A stretch of 46,698 nucleotides of DNA from a virus, in IMG/VR virus record IMGVR_UViG_3300031785_000008, positions 1-46,698 of that record; one strand, given 5' to 3'. Position numbers and translations under genes: made by a program. Under the pieces are notes generated by a model. That model was given only the letters and a program-made list of their open reading frames with translations, had not been told where the DNA came from and did no database searches. Shown here one piece after another: positions 12,729-35,208 of this stretch. Positions within the stretch are counted from its first letter, which is position 1. Every line of letters starts with the position of its first letter.

Positions 12729-12761
12729 GGTTATCTCCATATACTAAGCCCCGTTCCATGC

Positions 12762-13205
12762 TTAGTCGTCATGCGTCCCGTGAGGGATGAACGGACGTTC
12801 TATAGATTCTGCGGTTACTGATGCAAAACTTAGAGTTACTCGTGGTGTTAGTACAACTGGAGTATGATAAATACCTTTAGGTATGTAGAGATACTCTCCC
12901 GGAACTAACGTAACCCATTCATTTTCTATAAAGTATTTCACGCTACCTATTGCTTGTATTATTAATACATCATCTTCATCTTTATGTTTCCCAAAGGTAG
13001 GACTATCAGAAGTTAATGATACATAAACGTGCATGTCACCTTCATCACTAAGCACTTCATCATATGCTTTTTGTAGTGTATTAGGTCTGTAATCGTTATG
13101 TAATACGAATGTAGTACCTAAGATTGTTGCAGTGTTACTATGAACTTCATAATTTAATTTATCAATTACATCAGCCCAACTAATCTGACTGCATATTTTG
13201 TACAT
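12762..13205 (-). CDS. Cupin / JmjC-like protein, putative Fe(II) oxygenase
   Basis: A 147-aa protein from the ATG at 13205; an in-frame GTG at 13244 would add 13 residues. The N-terminus MYKICSQISWADVIDKLNYE resembles cyanobacterial and phage cupins. The core GKHKDEDDVLIIQAIGSVKYFI, a GEYLYIPKGIYHTP turn and a final TLSFASV strand give a jelly roll with a possible HxD...H metal triad. It lies between psbA with its 42-aa partner and the capsid. Substrate unknown. A cupin without catalysis is the alternative. Confidence 0.6.
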   Translation of the reverse strand: MYKICSQISWADVIDKLNYEVHSNTATILGTTFVLHNDYRPNTLQKAYDEVLSDEGDMHVYVSLTSDSPTFGKHKDEDDVLIIQAIGSVKYFIENEWVTLVPGEYLYIPKGIYHTPVVLTPRVTLSFASVTAESIERPFIPHGTHDD

Positions 13206-28065: not shown

Positions 28066-28269
28066 TTAACAGACAAAATGTCCTTTGCACTCCCAAGTCC
28101 ATACAAATTGGTGCATATCGCCATATTCGTCCTTGACTCTAGCATCTACTATCTTTGCAATAGTAACCTTGTCTTGTGCTGTAAACAAGTCACATACGTT
28201 GATGTCCTTGGTGCGGTGGAGCTTTTTGTTAAAGTCTTCCGCTTGTTGCATGAGGTCGTTATATTCCAT
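28066..28269 (-). CDS. Unknown early protein, 67 aa
   Basis: The product is [20 protein letters not shown], then [20 protein letters not shown] and a Trp/Cys-containing end, [11 protein letters not shown]. It overlaps the aldolase stop by 11 bases. The N-terminal half is helical. No function recognised. Confidence 0.7.
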
Positions 28270-29269
28270 AGGTAGGGATAGTTAATGCTTGACCAATACA
28301 TCCAAAGGATTCATACCTTTCAAGGCATACCTTTCTCATGTACTGACGAGCTATTGAATTAAAGTGTCTTGGATCAAAGTTAGAAGGATCAGTAATCTGA
28401 GCTTCATATATTGCAGCAGTGTAAGCTAATCTTAAATCTGTATCAATGTTGATTTTACGTATACCGTTGTCAATACCTTCACGTATGGAGTCAATTGGTA
28501 CACCATAAGTTTCAGGAATCTTACCGCCATTAGTATTGATTAAATCTATGTATTGCCAAGGGACTGAACTAGCTCCGTGCATTACTAGGTGTGTATTTGG
28601 CACGGCTTCGTGTATAGCTTTTATTCTGTCTATGTCTAAAACGTCAGATGTTGGTGGTTTACTGAACTTGTAAGCTCCATGTGATGTACCGATAGCAATA
28701 GCTAGTGCGTCAACACCTGTCTTTTTTACAAAGTCAACAGCTTGATCTGGGTCAGTAAGTAACATGTCCTTGGACAGCTCACCTTCAAATCCATGTCCAT
28801 CTTCTGCTTCACCTTTCCCTGTTTCTAATGAGCCTAAGCAACCAAGCTCACCTTCAACACTAACTCCTACATCATGTGCAAATTCAACGACTCGCTTTGT
28901 TACATTTACGTTATAATCATAACTAGCTGGTGTTTTACCATCAGCCTCAAGTGAACCGTCCATCATTACCGACGTAAAGCCAGCTACGCATGCTTGTGAA
29001 CATGTTTTTGGTGAATTACCATGGTCTTGGTGCATGACTATTGGTAAGTGTGGGTATTTTTCCGCAGCAGATTTAATTAGATACATGAGATACCCATCTG
29101 CATATTTTCTCGCACCTCGTGATGCTTGCAGTATTACAGGAGAGCAAATAGTATCGGCAGCTTCCATGATAGCTTGGATTTGCTCCATGTTGTTGACATT
29201 GAAAGCAGGAATACCATAATTATTTTCAGCAGCATGATCTAACACATGCTTGAGTGGTACTAAACTCAT
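28259..29269 (-). CDS. fba: Class II fructose-1,6-bisphosphate aldolase
   Basis: A 336-aa zinc-dependent aldolase very similar in motif content to the Calvin-cycle enzyme of cyanobacteria. Visible are [20 protein letters not shown], the zinc/catalytic segment [63 protein letters not shown] and [11 protein letters not shown]. The C-terminus stops about 20 residues earlier than cyanobacterial homologues, after [14 protein letters not shown]. It joins or splits triose phosphates and fructose bisphosphate. It sits in the early block, overlapped on both sides by small phage genes, so it is phage-borne and not an assembly join. Together with TalC it could steer carbon to pentose phosphates. Confidence 0.95.
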
Positions 29270-29745: not shown

Positions 29746-29853
29746 TTAATATGATGGGTCACCCTCTGGTTCTGGGTAGGTGGGTACGTCCTTGCGTTTA
29801 GTTTTAGTTGGTGTCTGCGTCCCTGCGTCCATGTGTGTGAATGATTGTGGCAT
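29746..29853 (-). CDS. Possible 35-aa polar peptide
   Basis: ATG at 29853 to TAA at 29746 gives MPQSFTHMDAGTQTPTKTKR, then KDVPTYPEPEGDPSY. It is polar, Pro/Thr-rich and probably disordered. The ATG lies in the ATGATTGTG repeat, and there is no good ribosome site. It is listed because it covers an otherwise empty stretch; it may be non-coding. Confidence 0.35.
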   Translation of the reverse strand: MPQSFTHMDAGTQTPTKTKRKDVPTYPEPEGDPSY

Positions 29854-29899
29854 GATGATTGTGTGTATGATTGTGGCGTCCTTGATTGTGATGATTGTG
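29841..29899. repeat. Five copies of a TGATTGTG motif
   Basis: ATGATTGTG occurs at 29841, 29855, 29867 and 29891, with a TTGATTGTG variant at 29882, all in direct orientation with spacings of 14, 12, 15 and 9 bases. The minus-strand form is CACAATCAT. It lies directly downstream (in transcription) of an intrinsic terminator. It could be a protein-binding array or a promoter region for the genes that follow. Confidence 0.6.
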
Positions 29900-29905
29900 T
29901 GCTTG

Positions 29906-29955
29906 TGAAAAAAATAAAAAAGCCGAAACCCCTGTCATAGCAGGGGATCTCGGGA
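29906..29955 (-). terminator. Intrinsic terminator in the early region
   Basis: On the minus strand CCCCTG-CTATGA-CAGGGG (stem 29929-29934 with 29941-29946), extended by outer CCG/CGG pairs, is followed by TTTCGGC and a long T-rich run (TTTTTTATTTTTTT). It lies about 20-30 bases after the 55-aa gene and separates the first early transcript from the rest. Confidence 0.85.
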
Positions 29956-29976
29956 TTTATTTAATTATATTTATAA

Positions 29977-30144
29977 TTAAGAATTAACTACAACTCTTGC
30001 ATATTCATAGCGGGCTGAGTTGTACCCAGCCTCCTTGTGAATTACTCGAAACCCCTTGTCTAGCAAGGCTTTATGGGTTTCGTCCGCGCGTCGTGTAGAC
30101 TCGGGTGAGCTGTCATCATAAACCATATAAATATGGTTATCCAT
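29977..30144 (-). CDS. Unknown early protein, 55 aa
   Basis: The frame opens further upstream, but the ATG at 30144 overlaps the stop of the previous gene (TAATG) and has a strong ribosome site AGGAGG close by. The product MDNHIYMVYDDSSPESTRRA continues DETHKALLDKGFRVIHKEAGYN. The strand-helix-strand pattern suggests a small alpha/beta domain. No family recognised. Confidence 0.75.
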   Translation of the reverse strand: MDNHIYMVYDDSSPESTRRADETHKALLDKGFRVIHKEAGYNSARYEYARVVVNS

Positions 30145-30839
30145 TATGCTACCTCCTGTAGTGACTGATTGACTTTTTTGGACTTGTTGCCATGTGCGAG
30201 GAATGCAACAACGCATGTACGCTTGGACTGTTGGCAAAGACCGCAGTCATTGCAGTTGGTGTCACGTGTTTGAGCTGGACATACTACGACGCGGTGACCG
30301 TCGGGTGTATGTGTGGCTACGTCCTTGCTGTTGTCTACGACAACGACAGCAGGCACGCCCTCGGCTACGCATTCGTCCGCTTGCTGCATGCTCTCGCATG
30401 AGGCGTTGATGGTAAAACCGTTGCGGTTACTGTACTTTACAGCTTCGAGGTTGTGCAAGTACTCGAGACGGTGGTGTGTGTAGGTGTAACCCTTGGCACC
30501 ACTGGATTTGTTAGCATCGACAAGAGACTTGAGCAAGTCAAGTCTGATGAGCTCACGACCATTGACGTCCTTGGTGTAACCAAGGTCGCCAGCTTGGTTG
30601 TGCCTCCATAGCTGACCGCGCTCTAACCCACTAACAAAGTTAGTGAGGTCAGACCAAGTACCACCACGTAGACCGTGGCTGACTTTTTTCCAATGCCAAG
30701 AGACCGGACCGGACTTTGCGTAGCAACCTCCGGATTGTAGGTGTGGACAAGTGCTGGGACATGATGCCTCCTCGGTTGTGGTAACTGGCATCTTGCCAGT
30801 TTTAGCATTGCTGGATTTTTTTGTGATGTGGACTAGCAT
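30144..30839 (-). CDS. Cys-rich conserved phage protein (DUF7227-like)
   Basis: A 231-aa protein with Cys clusters at both ends: SCPSTCPHLQSGGCYAKSGP (residues 27-46) and CPAQ...CNDCGLCQQSKRTCVVAF (about 189-214). In between are QLWRHNQAGDLGY and FTINASCESMQQADE. I recognise the pattern from hypothetical phage proteins of the DUF7227 type; the Cys spacing would suit iron-sulphur or zinc binding. The 30939 gene and a structured spacer precede it. The coding sequence itself holds many short perfect inverted repeats. Confidence 0.75.
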   Translation of the reverse strand: MLVHITKKSSNAKTGKMPVTTTEEASCPSTCPHLQSGGCYAKSGPVSWHWKKVSHGLRGGTWSDLTNFVSGLERGQLWRHNQAGDLGYTKDVNGRELIRLDLLKSLVDANKSSGAKGYTYTHHRLEYLHNLEAVKYSNRNGFTINASCESMQQADECVAEGVPAVVVVDNSKDVATHTPDGHRVVVCPAQTRDTNCNDCGLCQQSKRTCVVAFLAHGNKSKKVNQSLQEVA

Positions 30840-30938
30840 GACAAGATGGAAGTTAGGTGGATAATTAACCCTAAAGGGTTACGGTGTCCTTGCGGAGTTG
30901 AACCGCAAGTGAATACCCAGACACCAGTCTAGCTAAAG
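30840..30938 (-). promoter_or_regulatory. Structured spacer with three stem-loops
   Basis: Three consecutive stem-loops fill this 99-base gap: TAACCC-TAAA-GGGTTA (30866-30881), the tRNA minihelix-like element (30883-30925), and TCTAGC-TAAA-GCTAGA (30928-30943). The outer two share the loop TAAA. No T-run follows, so this does not look like termination. It probably shapes the junction between the first and second early messages. Confidence 0.5.
30883..30925 (-). ncRNA. tRNA acceptor/T-arm minihelix-like element 2
   Basis: Minus strand 5'-3': GGTGTC, a 10-base insert (TGGGTATTCA), CTTGCGG, loop TTCAACT, CCGCAAG, GACACC. The loop fits the tRNA T-loop consensus, with the closing G53-C61 pair. 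The GGTGTC/GACACC stem follows the T-stem without a gap, giving 13 stacked pairs with no mismatch. There is no space for the rest of a tRNA. The same architecture occurs upstream of the capsid gene (12642-12688). Confidence 0.65.
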
Positions 30939-31253
30939 CTAGAAAGGTAGAGCTGCCTTGCTATCGCAAGTAGCACCGACAAACTGGTAGCATAGCTTAC
31001 CAGTAGCGACAGTATTACCGTAAAGGTAATCTCTGACTCTGATAGCTTTCTGTGAAAGCTCTTGTACCCAGAAGCCAAGTGACATGTTGTCGTTAATCAA
31101 TAGATTAACAATCTTAGCTCTGCTAACGTTGGAGTACTTGTACTCATAGCCATTGGTGTAACGAAGTGTCACTGAACCCTTGAAAGGGTTAACCTGTATA
31201 GCTTCTACTGCTGTAGAAGTGCGAGGTGTTGGCTTGATTGAAACGTTGAACAT
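30939..31253 (-). CDS. KTSC-like small protein, first early gene
   Basis: A 104-aa protein MFNVSIKPTPRTSTAVEAIQ, then VNPFKGSVTLRYTNGYEYKY and SNVSRAKIVNLLI. The strand pattern around RYTNGYEYKYSNVS matches the KTSC domain style, known in small phage and bacterial proteins of unclear role. It is the first gene after the long non-coding region and so probably expressed first from a host promoter. Its coding sequence holds about ten short hairpins with perfect stems. Confidence 0.75.
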   Translation of the reverse strand: MFNVSIKPTPRTSTAVEAIQVNPFKGSVTLRYTNGYEYKYSNVSRAKIVNLLINDNMSLGFWVQELSQKAIRVRDYLYGNTVATGKLCYQFVGATCDSKAALPF

Positions 31254-31364: not shown

Positions 31365-31663
31365 ATGTCCTCATTCTAGTCGCTCTTGGCAAGTATTACA
31401 AATCATCTTAACACTTTGTAACAATGTATTATTACATAATACTTTGTTCGGGTTACCGTACTGTCTCACTGAGTCTCGACTTGGCAACAGATCGCCAGCC
31501 TCGCGCGTCACGCATGTCGCGAATGTTTAGCTCGCTCGGCTGCGCCTCGCTCCCCCACGACCAGCAGTGCTGTCTCTTGGACAGTACTACAATACTCCAA
31601 AACCCTTGGTATGACTGGGAAGGAGCGAGCGAAGCGAGCGGACTGGACTCGCATTGGACACAC

Positions 31664-31724
31664 GCCTGCGTTAATTGTTCCCGCGTGCCTGCGTTAATTG
31701 ATCGCGCCCGCGTCCGCGTTATTG
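31664..31724. repeat. Iteron-like direct repeats
   Basis: GCCTGCGTTAATTG occurs exactly at 31664-31677 and 31687-31700 (period 23), followed by a degenerate third copy GCGTTATTG at 31716-31724. Each is joined by CCCGCGT-type linkers. Direct repeats beside the genome end could bind a replication or packaging protein. Confidence 0.6.
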
Positions 31725-31772: not shown

Positions 31773-32381
31773 TCAGACATTTTTGCCAAAATTTAAGGAC
31801 TTATTTGCTAAATCTATAGACAAACGAAGTTCATCAGAATGTCTTTTTTTATACTCTTCTAATTTAGAAACCCATCCTGTAATAATATATTTTCTTTCGT
31901 CTGGAGCTACTACTCCACGGTGAAAATAAGGAAAGCCTGCTGCCCAGATGTACATATCTCCTGCTATTGGTTGTGCTGTTGTGTTTAAATATATAAACTC
32001 AGTACCTCCGCCTTTTTGGATAGTGTTAAGAAAGATCATCCATGCAAATATTCTCTCTTCACCTGTGCTTTCACAATGTGCTCTGTGACAATAGTTGTTT
32101 GGTTCATATCTCATTAGTTGAGCACCTCCGTTTACTATCCAATCAGTATAGTTAGTTTTAAGTAGAGGGTATTTGTCTACATACTTTCGACATGTATCAT
32201 CAATACCCTTACGAAGATCTGGATGTTCGTAAATATTAATGTTTATTTCTATATCATCCATAGGATGCTCTGGACCTAAATGACCTTGTTCAGCTTTATG
32301 AATATTGTTATCCATCAAATCTATGTACTTTTGACATGTATTAGCAGAAAAACAACTATTTTTTAAAATAAAGTTATCCAT
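31773..32381 (-). CDS. 2OG-Fe(II) oxygenase-like protein, 202 aa
   Basis: A prolyl-4-hydroxylase-type double-stranded beta-helix. It shows NYCHRAHCESTGEERIFAW, with a possible HxE metal pair instead of HxD, then FLNTIQKGGGTEFIYLN and the distal FHRGVVAPDERKYIITGW. In the last segment Lys takes the place of the usual 2OG-binding Arg. It overlaps the talC stop by 8 bases and is the last gene before the non-coding region. Substrate unknown. Confidence 0.8.
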   Translation of the reverse strand: MDNFILKNSCFSANTCQKYIDLMDNNIHKAEQGHLGPEHPMDDIEININIYEHPDLRKGIDDTCRKYVDKYPLLKTNYTDWIVNGGAQLMRYEPNNYCHRAHCESTGEERIFAWMIFLNTIQKGGGTEFIYLNTTAQPIAGDMYIWAAGFPYFHRGVVAPDERKYIITGWVSKLEEYKKRHSDELRLSIDLANKSLNFGKNV

Positions 32382-33030
32382 TATTGTCTATCTGTCCACT
32401 GTCAATCATAAATTGGAACAGTCCTTTATCGGTTAGCACATGTTTGTACATATCGTCGAATACTTTCGGCGGTATGGTGCAAATGTGTGCTCCTGCTGCG
32501 AATGCTCTACCAACTGTTGCAGCATCTCTAATGCTTGCAGCTAATATTTTTGTATCTGTTCTGTTATGGCAAAATACTTTAGCAATATCACGTATTAAAC
32601 CAATACCATCATGTCCGTTGTCGTCTAAACGTCCAACAAACGGTGATACGTAGGTTGCTCCAGCTAATGCACAGAGTATTGCTTGACTAACACTAAACAC
32701 TAAGGTCATATTAACTCTAATACCCATAAATGAAAGGGTTTTACAAGCTTTTATGCCTTCAGGAGTGCAAGGTAGCTTAATAGTTGCTTCATGTGGGTAA
32801 AGTTTCCCATATTGAATGCCATTTAGTATTAATGTTTCCGCATCATGTCCATCTACCTCTATTGAAAGGTCTTTTATACCTATATCTTTAATTAGATCGG
32901 CATATATGTCGTCTGGATCTTTACCACTCTTCTTAATCAGCGTAGGGTTGGTGGTAATCCCTGAGATAACTCCAGAATCAAGTCTTTCGTCTATCTCTTT
33001 AATAATTGCTGTGTCTAAGAACAGCTTCAT
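32374..33030 (-). CDS. talC: Transaldolase, TalC type
   Basis: A 218-aa short-form transaldolase: MKLFLDTAIIKEIDE, GITTNPTLIKKSGKD, a catalytic Lys in EATIKLPCTPEG, VNMTLVFSVSQAILCALAGA and TYVSPFVGRLDDNG. It links glycolytic and pentose phosphate sugars and is a frequent cyanophage metabolic gene, thought to raise pentose and NADPH for dNTPs. It sits at the late end near the genome terminus, as in other T7-like cyanophages. The start overlaps the 27-aa membrane peptide gene (ATGA). Confidence 0.96.
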   Translation of the reverse strand: MKLFLDTAIIKEIDERLDSGVISGITTNPTLIKKSGKDPDDIYADLIKDIGIKDLSIEVDGHDAETLILNGIQYGKLYPHEATIKLPCTPEGIKACKTLSFMGIRVNMTLVFSVSQAILCALAGATYVSPFVGRLDDNGHDGIGLIRDIAKVFCHNRTDTKILAASIRDAATVGRAFAAGAHICTIPPKVFDDMYKHVLTDKGLFQFMIDSGQIDNNG

Positions 33031-33477: not shown

Positions 33478-33479
33478 CT
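33460..33479 (-). repeat. 20-nt exact repeat, copy after terminase
   Basis: TATTAACCCGTCATCGGTCT, identical to 26577-26596 in the RNA polymerase gene. It spans the terminase stop codon and the following spacer. Chance is an unlikely explanation for a 20-base match in 46 kb. Confidence 0.65.
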
Positions 33480-35208
33480 AAACCCAGTTGTTATATGACT
33501 TCTTACCTTCTAGTCCTCTTGCCTCTCTACGCTGATCTATATCTAGTCCTAGAACAAGGTGATTAGTAGCAGATTGAGGGTCATCAAACCAAGCTTCTAA
33601 CATATCGTCCCACTCTTCTCTTTTTCTTAACTTGATCTGTTCCCGTGCAGAAATAGATAACGCATCTACGTAGTATTTAACTGCCTGTGCTAGACAGTCA
33701 AGTCTATCGTCATGTTTAACTGCGTATTTTTCTCTACACATACGACTCATCTGGTAAAAGAGCATATAGAGGAGCCGACTCTCAGGTGCACTGTTTTTGT
33801 TTGAGCTGTAATCCCACTCAATAACCCCACGGTCAACAATAAGACGGTGCTGGTTAAGAACAGGTTCAAGCGTATCAATAATCCTGTCTTCTTTTCTGAC
33901 ATTCGCACGTACTTCGTCCACAAGGATTCTTTGTTTGGTTTGTTGTATATGTTTTTTAAAAAGTTCACTTACTATTCCGTCTCCAAAGTTAGATTCTACT
34001 ACAAGAGTTGTAGCATTGTATTTTTTACAGCCTCTTAAAATATCGAGCAAGGTCGCATCTGAATACCCGTCACGGTAGGCTCGCATCTCATGTAGGTATA
34101 GAAAGCCGTTCTTTTGGGAGAGATAACAGGCTGCCGTTTCATCGGCTCCTCTACCGGAGGGGTCGACTGAGCAGATGGTTTCTTGGTATTTGGTCCATTC
34201 CCCCTGTATTTGCATCGGAGAGTAGAAGTAGTCCCCGGGTAGACCCACTGTGGGCAGATCTTTAAGTACATTCCTTGGGTCTGAACACCATATGATGTTG
34301 TCGGGTGCAGTGTCAGGATTAACACTGGTAACAACAAGGTCAGCCATTTTGAGAGGAAACTTCTCAGCGTCTGACAGACTTGTATCCAGCATAAATTGCA
34401 ACATAAAGTTGCTACGTCCCATGGACGCTTCTCTTTCAACAAGGTCATCTTCACTAAATCTGTCATCTGTAGGTGTCCAAGGTTGTACGCCATTATCTAT
34501 ATCTTCTTGTAGTTGTGGAGCTATTTTGCCTTCGTATTGTGTATTGTTTCTGGGATATCGCGCTGTCCAAACAAATGGTCTGTAATTCCGCTCTGCCAGC
34601 TTACGATAAACAGTAAAAGTAGTCTGAGGAGTCCCGAGATACATAATACGGCTATCGTCTTTCGGCGTAAGGATTGATTCTGCTTCGGTGCAGAGTTGAA
34701 GAAGCTTTTCACGCATCAACTCCGTCATGCTGTTCCCGGGAACCTCTATGTCGTCCAGAATCATTAAGTCTGCACGACTTCCCGTTAGCTGACCAGTAAT
34801 ACCAACACTTTTGACTGATGGTGCCTGATGAGGTGAACATAGAACGTCGAAGGAAATTCTTGACCATCTCGCGTCGTCGCTCTTTGGTTGTAGGTGACTT
34901 AACCATGGTGTTTCAATAATTAGTTTCTGTAGGAAAATACTCATGTTATCAGCTCTTTCCTTAGAAGCTGATATAATCATTATTTTCTTTTCTGCGTCAT
35001 TAAACAAAGTCCACAACACAAACGCTCCAGTAATCCAACTTTTTCCGACTCCTCGGAAGGCTTGGATCTGTAAACGTTTTGGTCCGTGCTGTAAATAGTC
35101 TGCAATGGCGTATTGTGCCCTAGTTGGTGAAGGGAGATCAAGCTGGTCCCATAATGCTTGCAGAAACAGCTTGAAATCGCCCTGTAAGGACGTTAAAACG
35201 TCAGTCAT
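33478..35208 (-). CDS. Terminase large subunit (gp19-like)
   Basis: A 576-aa packaging motor. Walker A-like IQAFRGVGKSWITGAF (residues about 53-68), Walker B LMILDDIEVPGN, and the RNase H-like nuclease with TICSVDPSGRGADETAACY, LVVESNFGDG and the late acidic KHDDRLDCLAQAV. It translocates DNA into the procapsid and cuts concatemers. It starts 20 bases after the 35229 gene. Confidence 0.95.
   Translation of the reverse strand: MTDVLTSLQGDFKLFLQALWDQLDLPSPTRAQYAIADYLQHGPKRLQIQAFRGVGKSWITGAFVLWTLFNDAEKKIMIISASKERADNMSIFLQKLIIETPWLSHLQPKSDDARWSRISFDVLCSPHQAPSVKSVGITGQLTGSRADLMILDDIEVPGNSMTELMREKLLQLCTEAESILTPKDDSRIMYLGTPQTTFTVYRKLAERNYRPFVWTARYPRNNTQYEGKIAPQLQEDIDNGVQPWTPTDDRFSEDDLVEREASMGRSNFMLQFMLDTSLSDAEKFPLKMADLVVTSVNPDTAPDNIIWCSDPRNVLKDLPTVGLPGDYFYSPMQIQGEWTKYQETICSVDPSGRGADETAACYLSQKNGFLYLHEMRAYRDGYSDATLLDILRGCKKYNATTLVVESNFGDGIVSELFKKHIQQTKQRILVDEVRANVRKEDRIIDTLEPVLNQHRLIVDRGVIEWDYSSNKNSAPESRLLYMLFYQMSRMCREKYAVKHDDRLDCLAQAVKYYVDALSISAREQIKLRKREEWDDMLEAWFDDPQSATNHLVLGLDIDQRREARGLEGKKSYNNWV

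Follow-up and report, generated by a model that had tools for sequence, protein, structure and literature searches.

The predicted first transcription unit of a T7-like marine cyanophage contains a dense array of short, perfectly paired hairpins, which runs through both of its genes and the gap between them. The hairpins are far more numerous than in synonymous codon shuffles, the array has definite borders and recurs in relatives, its stems keep within a band of stability and covary, and the translation start regions are left free. The best explanation, to which we give an even chance, is that the first mRNA transcribed by the host polymerase is a chain of hairpins, probably limiting decay and long-range misfolding.

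Hairpin excess in the window

The window is the whole stretch of viral DNA that was analysed, 46,698 nucleotides long. The earlier note had named 11 inverted repeats here with loops of 2–5 bases. All 11 are in the sequence, and ten have such loops; the repeat at 30984 (ACTGGTA...TACCAGT) has an 8-base loop. Further hairpins occur at 30866, 30928 and 31132 and, past the last gene, at 30121 and 29961, and there is an 8-bp version of the hairpin at 30525. The window contains 31 stems of at least 7 bp with loops of 2–6, of which 12 start within 30–32 kb and 19 in the remaining 44.7 kb.

Expected numbers were obtained by synonymous codon shuffling inside each gene (400 shuffles), which preserves base composition, and 18 other genes of the window served as a comparison. 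Both for stems of at least 6 bp (Table 1) and for stems of at least 7 bp (4 against 0.18 expected in the DUF7227 gene, 4 against 0.40 in the phrog_7365 gene), the observed count was matched by 0 of 400 shuffles in either gene, while none of the 18 other genes showed a notable excess. Chance or base composition is ruled out as the cause, since the excess persists against shuffles that keep composition. It had been proposed that codon choice folds the early transcript into a chain of hairpins, and that a similar density in shuffled sequences, or in the rest of the genome, would speak against this. Neither was found, since no shuffle matched the counts and the 18 control genes are ordinary. The hairpin excess is therefore real and local, and specific to the first transcription unit. 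The folding energy of the array coding RNA is also below that of codon-preserving controls: whole-gene z values are mostly −2.7 to −6.5, with one of −1.4, for array genes and −1.2 to −2.9 for other genes of the window. In this whole-gene folding the sense strand has no more than a slight advantage, a point against the mRNA reading.

Genome context and anatomy of the first transcription unit

The window phage is a near relative of Prochlorococcus phage P-GSP1, which matched 57% of a 6-kb megablast query at 79% identity. The window has genes for a T7-type terminase (33478–35208) and a transaldolase (32374–33030) but no tRNA genes, and its GC content is 0.50 at 30–31 kb and 0.31–0.44 elsewhere. 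The two genes that carry the array, phrog_7365 and DUF7227, are at the left end on the minus strand. In P-SSP7 and P-SSP2 their homologues belong to the first of the early genes and follow either the genome end or the transaldolase gene.

As shown in Table 1, the unit is predicted to start near 31366 and to end near 29908 on the minus strand. The promoter scan found 18 sites, compared to 9.2 in shuffles, and hexamers resembling the predicted promoter, read by eye, are at the same place in most aligned relatives. The 5′ UTR stem-loop is kept in both sequence and structure in 16 of 18 aligned upstream regions. In two relatives (L134 and L137) another sequence takes its place, and this includes a stretch resembling a tRNA T-loop (GGTTCGATTCC), which ARAGORN did not call as a tRNA. 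The predicted terminator has a bulged stem and was not listed by consensus scanners. Within the array, no minus-strand intrinsic terminator (GC-rich stem followed by a T-run) was called, TTTT is depleted in the sense strand to 0.42–0.45 of expectation, and no Rfam match was found.

Table 1. Features of the predicted first transcription unit, in positions of the window
Feature	Position	Strand	Details
Sigma-70 type promoter (predicted), TTGTAA-17-TAGAAT	31373..31401	-	Consensus match only
Long 5′ UTR stem-loop	31281..31364	-	MFE −39.9 kcal/mol, z −5.2; starts ~2 nt past predicted transcript start
phrog_7365 gene	30939..31253	-	E 1.8e-28; first gene of unit; densest in hairpins, 6 stems vs 1.11 expected
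Hairpin, 7 bp, loop 4	31202..31219	-	
Hairpin, 7 bp, loop 2	31175..31190	-	
Hairpin, 6 bp, loop 2	31132..31145	-	
Hairpin, 7 bp, loop 4	31092..31109	-	
Hairpin, 7 bp, loop 3	31044..31060	-	
Hairpin, 6 bp, loop 5	31014..31030	-	
Hairpin, 7 bp, loop 2	30928..30943	-	End of phrog_7365
Hairpin, 7 bp, loop 2	30866..30881	-	Intergenic, ~27 nt ahead of DUF7227 start
DUF7227 gene (PF23872, phrog_2554)	30144..30839	-	Pfam E 3.9e-83; hairpin-rich CDS, 6 stems vs 0.77 expected
Hairpin, 8 bp, loop 3	30783..30801	-	In relatives, covariation of the homologous stem at Thr/Pro third positions
Hairpin, 7 bp, loop 3	30629..30645	-	
Hairpin, 7 bp, loop 3	30569..30585	-	
Hairpin, 8 bp, loop 5	30525..30545	-	Alternative 6 bp, loop 2 at 30526-30539
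Hairpin, 6 bp, loop 3	30330..30344	-	
Hairpin, 8 bp, loop 2	30121..30138	-	Directly past DUF7227 stop
Hairpin, 9 bp, loop 2, AT-only	29961..29980	-	
Intrinsic terminator (predicted), CCGAGATCCCCTG...CAGGGGTTTCGG then T-run	29908..29955	-	Read from sequence; end of unit and array

We note some further features of the window. Directly past the predicted terminator is a TGATTGTG-rich low-complexity tract (29800–29910), and directly downstream of the early unit is a gene for a class II fructose-bisphosphate aldolase (28259–29269, minus strand); the P-GSP1 record has no such gene annotated at the matching position. The stretch at 31480–31700 is GC-rich and probably near the genome end; it contains a direct repeat, tgcgttaattg, as well as a long inverted one (gctcgctcg...cgagcgaagcgagc). 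A glutamine-II riboswitch aptamer was identified at 12744–12796 on the minus strand (Rfam RF01704, 47.9 bits).

Borders of the array

The borders were located using 69 of the 72 loci that carry phrog_7365, aligned at the gene start. The density of stems of at least 7 bp is 0.0–0.9 per kb far upstream and 1.7–1.8 in the last 400 nt before the start; over the gene's first 200 nt it reaches 13.7, followed by 6.0–7.3 up to +800, 1.9–2.6 up to +1400 and 0.1 thereafter. In 40-nt bins the array begins at the start codon and ends near +1300, a drop consistent with where the terminator lies; a single upstream bin, at −200, likewise has a high value (10.1). The array thus extends from directly after the first start codon to the predicted terminator, and the hairpin excess is confined to these approximately 1.3 kb.

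In P-SSP7 the last hairpin of the array is a GC-rich stem at 2609–2625, comparable to the terminator in the window, and only two further stems occur between it and 3.6 kb. Directly before this stem, at the array end (~2580–2605), is a stretch resembling the 3′ part of a tRNA (GGGTTCGACTCCC...CCA). The second gene of P-SSP7, which is non-homologous, has 3 stems compared to 0.37 expected (reached by 4 of 200 shuffles), and another non-homologous early gene, in P-SSP2, has 8 compared to 0.90 (0 of 200). The later genes of both phages have no excess. The hairpins therefore follow position in the first unit rather than gene family.

Physical signature of the stems

In the cyanophage set, enrichment over synonymous shuffles is confined to loops of 2–5 bases, with a peak at 3, and to stems from about 5 or 6 to 8 bp, with a sharp upper length near 8 bp; loops of 0, 1 and at least 6 bases are near expectation. 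The enriched loops include those of two bases, a size that is unusual for RNA. C-G and T-A, with the pyrimidine on the 5′ side, make up most of the closing pairs. G-C pairs per stem come to 2.58, 2.60 and 2.56 at stem lengths of 5, 6 and 7 bp, and to 2.94 at 8 bp, so that short stems are GC-rich and long stems AT-rich (Spearman −0.38, p 2e-8, from sequences that are partly non-independent), whereas in shuffled stems the GC fraction is roughly constant over lengths. This near-constant number of G-C pairs is as expected if selection holds stability within a band. For 230 isolated hairpins of at least 6 bp, from 13 loci, the median RNA folding energy at 22 °C is −7.2 kcal/mol.

Hairpin spacing in eight cyanophage loci was compared with random placement. 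In seven, the fraction of random placements that were as even was 0.000–0.051; in the window itself it was 0.335, and none of five roseophage loci was more even than random. Regular spacing was therefore rejected as a general feature.

Covariation and turnover

Codon alignments covered 52 DUF7227 and 62 phrog_7365 sequences. In them, stems reappear at identical columns although their sequences differ; for example, a pair formed by Thr and Pro third positions is T-A in 21 sequences, A-T in 16, C-G in 9 and something else in 6. Compensatory synonymous changes, which had been suggested as a check, are thus seen in relatives. From 46 listed stems, 20 were selected as recurrent (10 per gene, seen in at least 8 or 9 sequences). 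In these, the inner six pairs are all intact in 387 instances, against 53 with one defect (5 G:U, 5 A:C and 43 other), a count that is skewed to perfection because the stems were picked for recurrence; in all 46 stems the single defects comprise 24 G:U, 37 A:C and 105 other. An unbiased test, which took all stems of one reference sequence at a time for 12 references, gave a weaker result. Double changes restored the pair in a fraction of 0.25–0.48 (mean ~0.36), compared to ~0.25 for slid partners, the gain being absent for 2 of the 12 references. Hairpin density is better conserved than the individual positions, which turn over frequently. A conventional structured RNA with a consensus fold would keep its helices through compensatory and G:U changes; in the array, compensatory changes in recurrent stems occur together with this turnover, with weak covariation for some references and without use of G:U.

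Distribution among relatives

A survey of DUF7227 genes covered 80 listed loci (21 close, L006–L026, and 59 distant, L027–L085), with a clear excess defined as one reached by no more than 1 of 100 shuffles. On this definition, 18 of the 21 closest relatives and 3 of the 59 distant ones have an excess, and around the distant genes hairpin density is raised only ~2-fold. DUF7227 was therefore set aside as the cause of the array, all the more as roseophage arrays occur without it. In 46 aligned sequences, seven Cys and further residues of DUF7227 are invariant; its fold is predicted with confidence (pLDDT 94.9), but neither Foldseek with this model (threshold E 0.001) nor phmmer (threshold E 1) produced a PDB match.

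No clear excess was found in the early genes of T7, SP6, phiKMV, Syn5 and HTVC019P, and it was weak or absent in S-TIP37, S-SBP1, S-RIP2, S-CBP3, S-CBP4, S-RIP1 and S-SRP01. The first large early gene of pelagiphage HTVC011P, an ArdC anti-restriction gene (PF08401/PF18818; 559–1545), has 6 stems compared to 1.1 expected, but its relatives are only weakly raised (41 of 80 listed loci examined); an array in this phage is unproven.

Roseobacter phage CRP-345 is mentioned in a paper on HMO-2011-type phages (PMC9038755). It has a different genome plan from the window phage, and its hairpins peak at the left end. Relatives of its first gene, gp01, were found at 38 loci (L252–L289), of which 30 were examined. 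Together these contain 287 stems compared to 35.7 expected, and in 26 of the 30 the count was reached by none of 60 shuffles. The signature is that of the cyanophages, with stems of 5–8 bp, loops of 2–5 peaking at 3, ~2.5 G-C pairs per stem, a similar trade-off between GC content and stem length, and spared start regions, and stems with one G:U are again not enriched (0.59 of expectation). The triloops favour the sense strand (GNA 28, TNC 9; 27 and 17 in the cyanophage set). DUF7227 is present in only 13 of the 38 loci, showing that the array is not tied to it. From the sequence comparison, the array appears to have arisen independently in this unrelated lineage. We also observe that positions 1–2100 of CRP-345 and the loci of its relatives contain even denser arrays, up to ~30 hairpins of at least 5 bp per kb.

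Start codons, G:U pairs and the molecule under selection

From −15 to +15 around the start codon, stem-loop coverage is 0.00 for DUF7227 (44 distinct starts) and 0.00 for phrog_7365 (11 starts), with 0.24 in the flanks of each, and 0.05 compared to 0.28 for roseophage gp01 (16 starts). Of 12 gene-start families from the two lineages, 4 of them single sequences, 11 have less coverage at the start than in the flanks, and the twelfth has zero in both places. Internal in-frame ATGs are not spared (coverage 0.36–0.44). Selection on DNA would have no reason to spare start codons, and we therefore infer, with good confidence, that mRNA is the molecule under selection. For the same reason a role during DNA entry, which the earlier note had considered, is disfavoured.

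In both lineages hairpins flank the open start regions at about −40 and at +20 to +50. This is what would be expected if local hairpins insulated ribosome-binding sites from long-range pairing and paced the ribosomes. However, the hairpins extend hundreds of bases from any start and fill the non-coding gap, and insulation alone would need fewer of them, so that we consider translation control an unlikely account. We are more doubtful that the hairpins act in nascent RNA, folding behind the host RNA polymerase to stop backtracking or R-loops while the polymerase pulls phage DNA in. The restriction of the array to the first-transcribed left-end unit, its small, fast-folding stems with short loops and the T7-like genome organisation are in keeping with such a role, but it does not predict hairpin-free start codons, the early genes of T7, SP6 and phiKMV lack the excess, and the array ends after ~1.3 kb though entry would go on.

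G:U pairs were analysed for 6-bp stems in nonredundant sets of 24 and 30 genes. Perfect Watson-Crick stems are strongly enriched (138 vs 17.4 and 178 vs 23.0), while those with one G:U (26 vs 23.2 and 23 vs 17.7) or one A:C (23 vs 29.2 and 30 vs 33.2) are not. A slight sense-RNA bias in pooled G:U versus A:C counts (77 vs 40 in the region; 121 vs 94 in the control) was discarded, being absent in nonredundant and alignment-based tests. Real and shuffled genes are told apart better by local DNA energies, or by local energies without G:U, than by RNA energies that allow G:U. These results could indicate that selection acts on single-stranded DNA, or on both strands, such as displaced or unreplicated DNA of the left end; the slightly better fit of DNA energies, the preference for triloops and 2-base loops with C-G closing pairs, and the strand-symmetric loop composition in the cyanophage set would agree. 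We nevertheless consider this improbable, given that start codons are spared and internal ATGs are not, that the array boundaries match the predicted transcript, and that the roseophage triloops favour the sense strand. It is very improbable that selection is absent and that templated mutation (quasi-palindrome correction) keeps perfecting inverted repeats in this region, as the nearly all-or-none stems might suggest, since it should act genome-wide, yet control genes are at shuffled expectation, and it explains neither the spared start codons nor the sharp upper length nor the recurrence in an unrelated lineage.

The absence of G:U cannot be fully explained under the mRNA reading, and might point to a not yet known reader or a two-strand requirement. 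The latter is possible: P-SSP7 transcripts are described as almost completely covered by antisense RNAs, and host RNase E as rising during infection, in a 2022 paper that cites other work for both (PMC9692554).

Discussion

We propose that the mRNA of the first unit would open with one long stem-loop, continue with small perfect Watson-Crick hairpins over both genes and the gap, and end at the terminator, while ribosome-binding and start-codon regions would stay free of hairpin pairing. Selection would act on the folded transcript, holding each hairpin in a stability band and maintaining density while positions turn over. Fast local folding may leave this first message, made by host RNA polymerase, few single-stranded stretches for host ribonucleases, and may limit long-range misfolding over start sites, so that the first proteins are made reliably. 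That the benefit is protection combined with an open start region is a tentative proposal. An RNase E-like motif, written RNWTT, is no rarer in the array than in other genes of the same phages, and its depletion was dropped as an array feature because control genes are equally depleted; support for the ribonuclease idea is therefore indirect.

Some features have parallels in known systems. In the RNA coliphages MS2, Qbeta and GA, codon choice likewise favours folding of the coding RNA: by the same count, in pooled data with dinucleotide shuffles, perfect short stems are enriched 4.3-fold, those with G:U 2.05-fold and those with A:C 2.2-fold. The array differs in being limited to one 1.3-kb transcript of a double-stranded DNA phage, with 10- to 22-fold enrichment, only short loops, and little or no tolerance of G:U or A:C. 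RNA viruses also have genome-scale ordered RNA structure, which pervades the whole genome, whereas the excess here covers ~1.3 kb. Early mRNAs of T7 are processed by RNase III, and the T7 early genes are at the left end, as here, but like those of SP6 and phiKMV they have no hairpin excess. The 5′ stem-loop could, by its size, be an RNase III site and is the only candidate for T7-type processing. Bacterial mRNAs such as ompA have stabilising 5′ stem-loops; a long 5′ stem-loop is likewise predicted here, followed by a chain of small coding-region hairpins. The promoters of the N4 virion RNA polymerase are DNA hairpins with 3-base loops, similar in stem and loop size to those of the array. The array hairpins, in contrast, have heterogeneous stems and loops, occur many per gene inside coding sequence and avoid start codons, and no N4-type conserved hairpin sequence ahead of transcription starts was found among them.

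A full-text literature search, covering mostly titles and abstract starts with subscription papers largely outside it, found no account of hairpin arrays in early genes of cyanophages or roseophages, which does not prove that none exists. We regard the array as an extreme and bounded form of selection on coding-RNA structure. The same pattern is seen in an unrelated group of marine phages, which suggests that viruses have a so far undescribed means of shaping the first message they make. It is conceivable, though we hold it with less than even confidence, that unrelated marine phages independently shaped their first host-transcribed message into a series of short hairpins, tuned in stability, built from Watson-Crick pairs only and leaving the start sites open, an undescribed strategy of RNA architecture.

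In coding regions, selection for mRNA structure normally shows up as no more than a weak statistical signal; here it can be read by eye and has sharp borders. The array leaves ribosome start sites free and is found in two unrelated lineages of phages that have members in culture, which makes it a clean system for asking what coding-region hairpins do in decay, transcription and translation, with relevance to the first minutes of infection in abundant marine bacteria.
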